From an uncultured Bradyrhizobium sp. (GTDB lineage: Bacteria > Pseudomonadota > Alphaproteobacteria > Rhizobiales > Xanthobacteraceae), in assembly GCF_947648125.1 (NCBI RefSeq), contig NZ_CANSMR010000002.1, positions 310,001-374,000 of the forward strand: a stretch of DNA of 64,000 nucleotides, read 5' to 3'. Shown one piece after another: positions 12,262 through 15,385 of the stretch; position 1 is the stretch's first letter; each line of letters starts with the position of its first letter. The position numbers and the translations under genes are program-made. The notes below the pieces were generated by a model, which had not been told where the DNA came from, made no database searches, and saw only the letters and a list, made by a program, of their open reading frames with translations.

Positions 12262-12582
12262 TTACGAGTCGATCTTCGATACTTCCCAGTTCCAATCTGC
12301 ATCAACTGGTCCGCCGGGATCATGTTGGCGGTCTGCTCCGCCGCTATCTCCTTGCTTCGCGTTCCAGCTGGCTCCACGCAACAGAAGAGTTGTTCCTCCT
12401 TGGCCATCCGAACAGGCTAGGCCGTTTGCGGTGGACGTAACACTATCACCCTGCGTGATGTTACTTATCTCGCGACCGGCTGGACTCTGGTCCTCCCAAG
12501 TCCGCGGCTCCTTCTTCAAATCGACCGCATATGCCTCGCCCGCGCCGTCAGTCAAAGAGACATGCAACACTGTAAAGGCCAT
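12262..12582 (-). CDS. Small hypothetical protein, last gene of MACPF-like cluster
   Basis: 106 residues, no signal peptide, rich in G, S, T and D. It looks like a small beta-sandwich protein (MAFTVLHVSLTDGAGEAYAV near the start, WNWEVSKIDS at the end). The ATG at 12582 is preceded by AAGGGG six bases upstream, a good ribosome site. It lies 117 bases downstream of the MACPF-like gene in the same direction, so it is probably co-transcribed. Size, likely beta content and a GDSVTSTANG...GQGGTTLLL pattern are faintly reminiscent of aegerolysins, which partner MACPF proteins. The hallmark aegerolysin residues are not evident, so this is only a hypothesis. Confidence 0.6.
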   Translation of the reverse strand: MAFTVLHVSLTDGAGEAYAVDLKKEPRTWEDQSPAGREISNITQGDSVTSTANGLACSDGQGGTTLLLRGASWNAKQGDSGGADRQHDPGGPVDADWNWEVSKIDS

Positions 12583-12699
12583 GAGACGCCCCTTTTCAAA
12601 TCTCTCAATTCTCACAATGCAACGACAATGATTACGAATGTGACGCACACAAGGAGGGAGCGCCGTCATGCTCTCGCCCTAGTCCGCGGCTGCCCTCCA

Positions 12700-14628
12700 T
12701 TATTTTCCATTCGGGAACGGAGGAGTGAAGTTGTAGCATGTGAATACTACATCAACGTAGCCACACTGATTGCCCGATCGACTGTTAAAAGCCGTCCAAG
12801 AGTGACGGAACGAGTCCATTGCCTTCTCGCAAAAGAGACGTGCACGCGCCTCGAAATCTCGTTGGTCACAGCTTAGATGATTTTGATCATAGGGTTGCCC
12901 GCATGATCCTGGATTCTCCCCGGCACATGCGTAAACGTACGACGGAACGACGTTGTACGTAATCGTGGGCGGGACAATAGTAGCGACCACGTCCGTGTAT
13001 TCCTGATCCTGCTCGTCCTTGCCGAGGCACTCAAAAAACAATCTGCACCGGACCTGATCAGTTCTTTCAATCCAATATCGGTACAACGCCTGCGCGAAAG
13101 TCCTCTGACGCAGCGGAGTTCCCGACGCGCCACTGAAATCCGTGATTATTTTCAGGTCCTTTTCTGAAACGCCATCAAGTGGAAGCGGCAATGTGATCCA
13201 GAAGCGAAAATCATTGAAGTTCTTCAGGTCATTTTTTACTTTCTTAGAGACCAATGCCTCACAATTCTTTTGGTGCGTCCCAAGCTCGCGAAGGCGCTCT
13301 CGTCGGCTTGGCGTATTTCCCGATACCGGAGGCGCTTTGCAGTCGGGGCCATCAAGTATCTTCAGCAACTGATCAACCTGGTCCATTTCGTTCCGGACGA
13401 GGTCGCTTGTCTCGCCAAGGTTGTCCTCCCTCAACTGGTGAGCATAGTCGAAAAGATACTTATCTCCCTTAACTCCGTCGTCTCTGAAATAGTTCTCACG
13501 CATGTTTCTCACTTCGTAGAGTATGGACTGCAACCGCTGGAAGTATCTGGTTGCGCGTTGCCGCATATCGGACGTGTCCAACATATAGAGGGCGGGCCAA
13601 TTTGGCAGCTCCGAGTAGGGAATCAGATTTACATAGAGGGCACGCGGTCCATCCTTTTCTTCGCCCATAAAGGTTTGCACTTTTTTCCTGACTTCATCCA
13701 AATTTGTAGGAACAGTTGTGAATATCCCGCCCTGTTGCACAAACTCGATATCCAGAGAGTGTTTCTTTATGAGATCGTCGATCTTTGTGCTGAAGCTGCC
13801 GGAAGCTCCGCCACTGAAGACGTCTCCGATACCTGCCGACGCCTTAGCCGATGTCTCTAGATCAACTTTGTCCTCGGTTGTCAGATCATGCGCATGAAGC
13901 ATCACGTACAAATCCGCGCCCTTCCCTATCGTTGCAACATAGCCGTCCCCGCACTTGTCGCGAAACGCCTCTCCGTCTGTCGCAGCTAACTTAGCCATGT
14001 CGGATCGAAGCAGGATGCCATTGGCTTTCGGTCCTGCGTAGACGATGCCATTGGTCGCAGATTCGTGTGCGATGAACGTGGTATCGCTAGTTGACATGTG
14101 ATGCGACGCGTTCAGCGAGAATTTGGCTTCACCTGAGGCTTTTACTACCTCAATGGTCGCTTTTGCGGACACATCAAATGACGTATTCAGGCTGATGTCT
14201 AAGGTTTCCTCGTCAACAGTCTGCTGAATTCTCGAGTCAACCGTCTGATACTTATCGTCATGCACTGCATTAAATTCGACGCAGGACATAAGCTTCTTCT
14301 GATTTGATAGAAAATCCCATCCGTAGCCCAACTCCGCGCCGTCTCCGCTTGGATATGCGACCGTGCGGCGACTGAAGAGGTTTGCAAACGTGGGATCTTG
14401 CGCAGCCAACGCAGCCTCTGTGGTCCCGACCTTTGTACCGAAGAGATTCTTTCGATCTGCCTCCGATGGACTTGGGGGATTGCGCAGCTTAATAGCTGGT
14501 TGGTTGTACGGCGCTTGCGTGGATGGCCGCACTGGACCGCTGGGATAGTTTGCTTCCCACGCATCGGCCCCGGAAAAAGAAGAGAGCAGTACGACGAACA
14601 GAACAATTGACATTGCCAAGCGTTGCAT
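12700..14628 (-). CDS. Secreted MACPF-like protein (candidate pore-former)
   Basis: 642 residues with a clear signal peptide (1-23, ending SFSGADA). At 100-120 LGYGWDFLSNQ..SCVEF resembles the opening of bacterial MACPF domains. At 222-244 lies CGDGYVATIGKGADLYVML, which fits the MACPF signature G-x-x-Y/F-[VI]-x5-G-[GA]. Flanking Ser/Thr/Lys/Ala-rich segments at about 150-195 and 252-300 sit where the two membrane-inserting helical clusters would be. The C-terminal part (330-642) is Cys-containing and unrecognised. The start is uncertain (ATG at 14640 also possible). Base composition is clearly more AT-rich than neighbours, suggesting acquisition. MACPF assignment is by motif only. Confidence 0.65.
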   Translation of the reverse strand: MQRLAMSIVLFVVLLSSFSGADAWEANYPSGPVRPSTQAPYNQPAIKLRNPPSPSEADRKNLFGTKVGTTEAALAAQDPTFANLFSRRTVAYPSGDGAELGYGWDFLSNQKKLMSCVEFNAVHDDKYQTVDSRIQQTVDEETLDISLNTSFDVSAKATIEVVKASGEAKFSLNASHHMSTSDTTFIAHESATNGIVYAGPKANGILLRSDMAKLAATDGEAFRDKCGDGYVATIGKGADLYVMLHAHDLTTEDKVDLETSAKASAGIGDVFSGGASGSFSTKIDDLIKKHSLDIEFVQQGGIFTTVPTNLDEVRKKVQTFMGEEKDGPRALYVNLIPYSELPNWPALYMLDTSDMRQRATRYFQRLQSILYEVRNMRENYFRDDGVKGDKYLFDYAHQLREDNLGETSDLVRNEMDQVDQLLKILDGPDCKAPPVSGNTPSRRERLRELGTHQKNCEALVSKKVKNDLKNFNDFRFWITLPLPLDGVSEKDLKIITDFSGASGTPLRQRTFAQALYRYWIERTDQVRCRLFFECLGKDEQDQEYTDVVATIVPPTITYNVVPSYVYACAGENPGSCGQPYDQNHLSCDQRDFEARARLFCEKAMDSFRHSWTAFNSRSGNQCGYVDVVFTCYNFTPPFPNGK

Positions 14629-14702
14629 GATCCCACCCATCTTTGCGTCATGACGATTGAAACAAATCAGTACTGCTGAGCGCACATAGGCAAGGTCTTC
14701 GC

Positions 14703-15002
14703 CTACTTTTTGCTTGCTCGGTCAACGGAGGGCATAGGCGGACACGTAATGCTCGCTCCAATATCACTGTTGGAACCGTTGACCTTCGTCGACCATATGG
14801 CGGATGGCGGATTAGTGCTGAGAACACAGACCATCGCAGACGAGAGGTCTTTTTGAATTTGTGGACAAAGCTGCGCTCCAATCGAATACAGTTGCCCCTC
14901 GAAGAAGCAGTATCGACTGAGGTCGCTTGGTAGGTTCTGCGAATGCGCAGGCGCAGCAATTAAAGCCAATGAAAGCAATAGCAAGTTGTTAAGCCGCAAC
15001 AT
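14703..15002 (-). CDS. Small secreted protein, DUF1496-like motif
   Basis: 99 residues with a signal peptide (LLLLSLALIAAPAHS). The mature part holds four cysteines, with CFFEGQLYSIGAQLC followed by VC, resembling the C-x-Y/F-E-G-x-x-YS-x-GA pattern of DUF1496-type periplasmic proteins. GGGGAGG five bases before the ATG at 15002 decides the start. It lies 74 bases upstream of the MACPF-like gene, same strand. Function unknown. Confidence 0.7.
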   Translation of the reverse strand: MLRLNNLLLLSLALIAAPAHSQNLPSDLSRYCFFEGQLYSIGAQLCPQIQKDLSSAMVCVLSTNPPSAIWSTKVNGSNSDIGASITCPPMPSVDRASKK

Positions 15003-15058
15003 TCGCACCTCCCCAAGAACGGTTCAGTAGATCGTTTCGAATGTAACTTCCGTCAGTT

Positions 15059-15385
15059 TTAATTCTTATTCTTCAACCGAGCGATCGCCCGTTCGATAGC
15101 ACCGCGATTGGCACCTTTCGCTACAAACGACGCGTTCATGCGCGGTGTGGCTCGTGCACTCTTTCCTTCACCGGTGCACGTCGTGGAGCAGCAATGATCT
15201 CCGCACTCCCCACTTTCGTCATAGAGCGCAACGCACCCTTGGCCCGGCTTGCAGGTGATGGTGCAATCATCATGACCGGGTGCCGTGCAAGTACAATCAG
15301 GATCACCGGACTGTTTGCATTCGGCGCTAGCGGGACTTGCAAACATGAGGCATGCAAAAATGATTGAAAAGACAGCGGCATGCAT
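15059..15385 (-). CDS. Small secreted cysteine-rich protein
   Basis: 108 residues. A signal peptide (to about residue 21, SPASA) is followed by a domain with ten cysteines in about 48 residues (CTCTAPGHDDCTITC, CGDHCCSTTC) and a basic, Cys-free tail (RGAIERAIARLKNKN). The pattern suggests a disulfide-rich knot or metal-binding module. GGAG lies eight bases before the ATG. It is the first gene of the likely four-gene minus-strand operon 15385 to 12262. No family recognised. Confidence 0.7.
   Translation of the reverse strand: MHAAVFSIIFACLMFASPASAECKQSGDPDCTCTAPGHDDCTITCKPGQGCVALYDESGECGDHCCSTTCTGEGKSARATPRMNASFVAKGANRGAIERAIARLKNKN

Follow-up and report, generated by a model that had tools for sequence, protein, structure and literature searches.

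The closest described relatives of the protein considered here belong to the MACPF/CDC/SNTX superfamily, which takes in perforin, complement C8/C9, pleurotolysin B, TgPLP1, stonustoxin and the CDCs; the classical MACPF signature reads [YW]-G-[TS]-H-[FY]-x6-G-G. We describe here a locus in a stretch of 64,000 nucleotides (hereafter the window; contig NZ_CANSMR010000002.1, positions 310,001 to 374,000) of the 8.57 Mb genome of an uncultured Bradyrhizobium sp., in which a low-GC island encodes the protein P0001 and three smaller proteins, P0002, P0003 and P0004 (Table 1). We lean towards placing P0001 in this superfamily as an exported pore-former, and towards an acquired origin of the island that carries it. 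Among bacterial members, BSAP-1 is an exported MACPF protein whose separate C-terminal domain sets the receptor, and the BSAPs are Bacteroidales surface lipoproteins with PF01823, as described in PMC12853789; CDCL proteins carry an F/Y-F/Y-Xn-YGR motif, as given in PMC7527733.

The MACPF-like core that an earlier, sequence-only reading had assigned to P0001 was supported by a profile search, by fold comparisons on two models, by the order of strands and helices and by the amphipathicity of the hairpin segments. The search against the MACPF family proposed at that time gave a divided answer: P0001 alone matched no Pfam MACPF model even at E<=10, whereas the family profile did match known MACPF/SNTX proteins (9 of 60 rows among the matches listed). 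P0001 alone also had no credible match in PDB sequences, NCBIfam or PHROGs. Matches to Cas12c in PADLOC (E = 0.0052, 12.7 bits, residues 360–476) and to Anemone_cytotox in Pfam (E = 0.13) were taken as chance. Fold comparisons with both models, the first of which was built on alignment A5, matched MACPF/CDC/SNTX structures. As for the bent sheet with two helical clusters that the earlier reading had named as the mark of the fold, the fold matches, the strands and the second cluster were recovered, but the first cluster was poorly modelled; residues 151–175 have a predicted local distance difference test score below 50 in the model. The signature region reads C-G-D-G-Y-V-x5-G-A, which does not match the classical pattern. 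The C-terminal part is rich in cysteine (10 Cys, residues 430–631), and its last 88 residues alone gave no convincing match (best 0.2 in one search, none in another).

Two segments of the core were analyzed as putative transmembrane hairpins (TMH1 and TMH2). Compared with shuffles, the mean beta-moment reached z=5.86 in P0001 for TMH1 (mean 1.92 over 38 rows) and z=2.16 for TMH2 (mean 1.66 over the same number of rows). Three other segments averaged 0.13, 0.63 and -0.11; of these, the helical segment has helical periodicity (1.18) instead. Such amphipathicity of both segments is what should be expected if they are future beta-hairpins.

In P0001 the signature aromatic is replaced by Cys226, which co-occurs with a second cysteine, Cys116. 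In alignment A7, Cys116 was present in 35/35 rows with Cys226 and absent from 3/3 rows with an aromatic residue. An alignment-free test looked for a cysteine after a G-x-G anchor, a motif missing in L014 (Cys226) and L009 (aromatic); the cysteine was found in 40 of 41 Cys226 rows and, among the six aromatic rows, in none of the five testable. These two analyses were used because alignment A5 misplaces Cys116 in several rows. Since the pattern of the contig scan described below required a cysteine at position 226 and not at 116, the count of Cys226 among its hits was given no weight. With one heuristic, an export signal was called in 38 of 41 cysteine-type rows and in 0/6 aromatic rows; a slightly different heuristic called a signal in 32 of 38 members. 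The co-occurrence of the pair and the export signals make a disulfide the natural reading and suggest that a Cys116–Cys226 bond may stabilise the exported form. On this reading, one fold is common to the Cys-paired exported clade and the signal-less set devoid of the pair.

Overlapping genome samples contained relatives of P0001 at each rank searched, with 4 among 391 genomes for the family (own included), 5 among 397 for the order, 4 among 385 for the class and 7 among 398 for the phylum; 3 of 72,556 plasmid records had one as well. No relative was found in phage records, nor in viral contigs by protein search; the sole viral pattern match, L063, is an 86-residue frame to which P0001 has no match. 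One degenerate-pattern scan of genome contigs returned 45 stretches, of which 44 were accepted as members. For 38 of these, tblastn with P0001 gave a match at E<=1 (37 below 0.02), and L025, L028, L051, L054, L055 and L061 were joined to the others by blastp single linkage at 1e-4. The remaining stretch, L036, was dropped, having no match to P0001 and a frame that looks of low complexity. One of the 44, L052 (Bradyrhizobium sp.), is the same gene as L002 from the same-genus genome G337; both encode a 404-residue family frame that begins alike and carries the same motif. The members include Bdellovibrionota, Myxococcota, Thiodiazotropha and Acidobacteriota. NCBIfam gave no MACPF model for 38 members, listing 20 families, mostly TPR-type or weak and hit by one member each. 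In a tree of 41 cores P0001 stands beside L030 with a Shimodaira–Hasegawa-like approximate likelihood ratio (SH-aLRT) of 89, which does not reach the starred level; as L030 is moreover a long branch, no placement of P0001 is claimed. C-terminal domains of relatives include Jacalin, Ricin_B_lectin (below cut-off) and PASTA (L016, L013, L008). In L024, L035 and L054 a second MACPF-like frame directly adjoins the first, as judged by eye from translations. Among the titles and abstract openings listed in searches of open-licence papers, no report of the clade or of any Bradyrhizobium MACPF was found.

Table 1. Features of the island, its genes and its flanks, in window coordinates
Feature	Position	Strand	Remarks
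Low-GC island	12003..15842	none	53.2% GC
P0004	15059..15385	-	108 residues; signal peptide; 11 Cys, 10 in mature part
P0003	14703..15002	-	99 residues; signal peptide; 4 Cys; ATG start, GGGGAGG upstream
P0001	12700..14628	-	642 residues; signal peptide; 12 Cys; MACPF/CDC-fold
MACPF-like core of P0001	13594..14346	-	residues 95–345 (about 90–345)
Codon of Cys116	14281..14283	-	proposed disulfide partner; co-occurs with Cys226
Putative TMH1	14083..14217	-	P0001 residues 138–182; beta-amphipathicity
Codon of Cys226	13951..13953	-	in place of MACPF signature aromatic
Putative TMH2	13756..13890	-	P0001 residues 247–291; beta-amphipathicity; two helices in model
P0002	12262..12582	-	106 residues; without signal peptide; AAGGGG upstream
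nrdJ-like gene	8226–12002	+	left island flank
panD-like gene	15967–16365	-	right island flank

The four co-directional genes of the sequence-only reading are all present, on the minus strand, and its good ribosome sites were found before the P0003 and P0002 genes. Its 10-cysteine count for the first peptide is right for the mature part of P0004. Export signals, called by a home-made heuristic, are found in three of the four products only (P0004, P0003 and P0001). The ATG of P0003 lies two codons inside a GTG frame (GTG start 15008). Promoter-like sites upstream of the first gene fell below the chance level, with one found (15453–15424) against 3.0 expected, so that the likely operon is supported only by the shared direction, the gaps between successive genes (56, 74 and 117 bases) and ribosome-site-like sequence.

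The claim that this DNA is AT-rich was borne out: 12262–15385 has 52.0% GC, against 64.3% for the whole window, and lies in its most AT-rich 3-kb stretch. The 3124-base stretch of minimum GC begins at 12366 (51.7%), and stretches entirely outside 12003–15842 never fall below 61.2%. Third-position GC is 0.53–0.57 in the four island genes; for the two flanking genes, which we take from their translations to be nrdJ-like and panD-like, it is 0.89 and 0.85, respectively. The site was compared in three relatives, out of 35 of 60 genomes with a panD-like match (own included). In G1470, DNA 94.7% identical over 7000–12004 of the window is followed by a match that restarts at 15843, and between the two matches lies 1.0 kb of other DNA in place of the 3.8 kb of the window. 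G1499 has other DNA and an altered gene order at the site, and the G1474 stretch gave no nrdJ-like match. The replacement DNA has 53–54% GC in the two relatives measured (L102 and L103). The content of the site therefore varies between genomes, and the island was most likely acquired. Repeats within 11950–16100 comprise four direct pairs of 14–19 bases and one imperfect inverted pair, none at the island ends. Relatives carry one kind of repeat that both window positions 15857–15906 and 17530–17614 match and that may be a recombination element.

The sequence-only reading had further proposed that the small proteins are dedicated partners, and this was not supported: judged by its own refuting condition, homologues without the small secreted genes, the proposal failed within the loci covered. 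By tblastn against L001–L063, the three small proteins gave nothing at E<0.01 outside their own genome, so they were not seen as a set travelling with P0001, and the conserved-neighbourhood check did not find them with P0001 homologues as far as these short loci reach. The loci have 1.5-kb flanks, 6-kb flanks (plasmids) or span no more than 8 kb with the gene at any point in them, so that a partner lying farther away would have escaped detection. NCBIfam, PHROGs and PADLOC yielded nothing for P0002, P0003 and P0004, and the best Pfam values were weak for P0002 (0.44) and P0003 (0.19), with none for P0004. Among 98 genus genomes, P0002 found a match in its own alone. Of 50 genomes of the genus, five, its own among them, gave P0003 matches at E<=0.01, those outside its own genome being partial and weak (best 0.0012). 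P0004 was matched at E<=0.1 in 47 of 117 genomes, own included, among which G242 alone is prominent (5.8e-6; next 0.0015); a two-row profile matched 5 of 100 genomes including its own and G242, the others at 0.0019 or weaker. In G242, another genome of the genus, the P0004-like cysteine motif starts a 104-residue frame (L105 3996–4310) beside subtilase-like genes. A match of P0004 to repeats of a Burkholderia oklahomensis agglutinin (4e-6) was set aside, since that value adds up three copies of which none is significant by itself; a two-row profile scored this agglutinin more weakly (0.0018), a lead only, on which no lectin claim is based.

Neighbours of the family gene were surveyed in 44 of 45 contig loci and three plasmid loci, 3 of these 47 giving no recognised family frame. 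Of 20 neighbours lying close downstream in the same direction, 12 were called secreted, compared with 31 of 134 control pairs (one-sided p=0.0013); the signal test was home-made and the downstream side chosen post hoc. Upstream, 6 of 19 were called secreted (p=0.29). On a Polaromonas plasmid, the MACPF gene is followed by a secreted M35 (Aspzincin) metallopeptidase (L005 7889–8500; 5.4e-20). The downstream neighbour in L007 is a secreted peptide with 9 Cys; the secreted 9-Cys peptide of the Methylorubrum member is 85 residues long, has one of the cysteines in its signal part and lies 9 bases downstream. The L024 entry among the 12 is a second MACPF-type protein. Related neighbours in L049 (618–1838), L048 (5539–6861) and L026 (6251–7807) have in common a G-x-G-[VI]-Y-F motif reminiscent of ADP-ribosyltransferases; they have no credible Pfam match and a best value of 0.048 in PDB sequences. 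The L048 neighbour lies outside the 12/20 count, and the L026 one was not called secreted by the heuristic. The frequent presence of a secreted gene, of varying identity, directly after the family gene is a hint of partner proteins.

Several observations weigh against the assignment of P0001 to a pore-forming MACPF family, besides its lack of a Pfam match. PF01823 was reached at E<=1 by 2 of 37 members (best 9.5e-5), and L059 scores 18.8 bits against a gathering cut-off of 21.5. The family profile also scored coiled-coil chains (coronavirus spike constructs, 7.2e-5 to 0.0015), at profile positions 297–367, outside the MACPF core. The first helical cluster is unresolved in model 2, the control segment 183–200 also slightly exceeds shuffles (0.63), and the aromatic row L009 has a cysteine in the 116 column of one alignment. 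Finally, some MACPF proteins are not known to form pores. P0001 could be a MACPF-fold protein that does not perforate but acts as an exported adhesin, scaffold or signalling factor. The altered signature, with Cys for the aromatic, D-G for T/S-H and G-A for G-G, would suit such a role, as would the presence among the fold matches of astrotactin-2, which is not known as a pore-former; the average beta-amphipathicity of both hairpin segments over 38 rows, expected if they still insert, speaks against it, and we hold it rather unlikely.

We regard the chances as evenly balanced that the small genes are cargo of this variable site with no tie to P0001, rather than its partners: their lack of matches at other loci, the matching of P0002 in its own genome alone among 98, the occurrence of the P0004 motif beside subtilase-like genes and the other cargo that relatives carry at the island site all agree with this, whereas the common strand, the short gaps, the similar third-position GC, the enrichment of secreted downstream neighbours at other members and the 9-Cys peptide of the Methylorubrum member favour a connection. 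The two small secreted cysteine-containing proteins are possible accessories of P0001. A further proposal, which we find doubtful, is that the clade forms delivery pores passing a co-secreted enzyme into the target, as perforin does with granzymes, the neighbouring gene encoding the cargo. The downstream enrichment, the M35 metallopeptidase and the motif of the three related neighbours fit it; the home-made test and post hoc choice of side, the absence of credible matches for these three and of a called signal in one, the MACPF-type protein and the apparently ordinary lipoproteins among the 12, and the position of the secreted small genes upstream of P0001 in the window do not. More improbable still would be a full perforin-and-cargo system, in which a disulfide-locked secreted pore has partners interchangeable from strain to strain (proteases, ADP-ribosyltransferase-like enzymes, Cys-rich peptides), the island being one module with two Cys-containing secreted partners.

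We take P0001 to be an acquired, exported and probably pore-forming member of the MACPF superfamily within the Cys-pair clade. After Sec export, a Cys116–Cys226 disulfide would hold the core, and the C-terminal part would bind a receptor on the target cell. Monomers could then assemble into a ring in which two segments unfurl into a beta-barrel, perforating a membrane of a microbial competitor or predator or of a host cell. The analysis adds a scattered, exported perforin-like set in bacteria, whose members the Pfam and NCBIfam MACPF models mostly miss, and the cysteine pair offers a simple sequence mark that tracks export. If the neighbours prove to be cargo or cofactors, this would be a bacterial counterpart of perforin–granzyme logic that is directly testable.

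Compared with the systems described above, P0001 differs from the CDCL proteins in having no YGR (sequence inspected by eye) and no second MACPF adjoining. It may be likened to the aegerolysin/pleurotolysin-B pores, in which a MACPF protein works with a small partner; at E<=10, however, Pfam gave no aegerolysin match for any of the small island proteins. Like BSAP-1, P0001 is an exported bacterial MACPF protein with a separate C-terminal part, but unlike the BSAPs it has no PF01823 match and no lipobox-like match to a simple pattern, which 15 of 37 members do have. Within the MACPF/CDC/SNTX superfamily at large, it falls below library thresholds, carries a cysteine for the aromatic together with a second cysteine and has its own Cys-rich C-terminal part, yet it shares the core fold and the two beta-amphipathic segments and keeps the signature remnant G..[YF]V-x5-G[GA].
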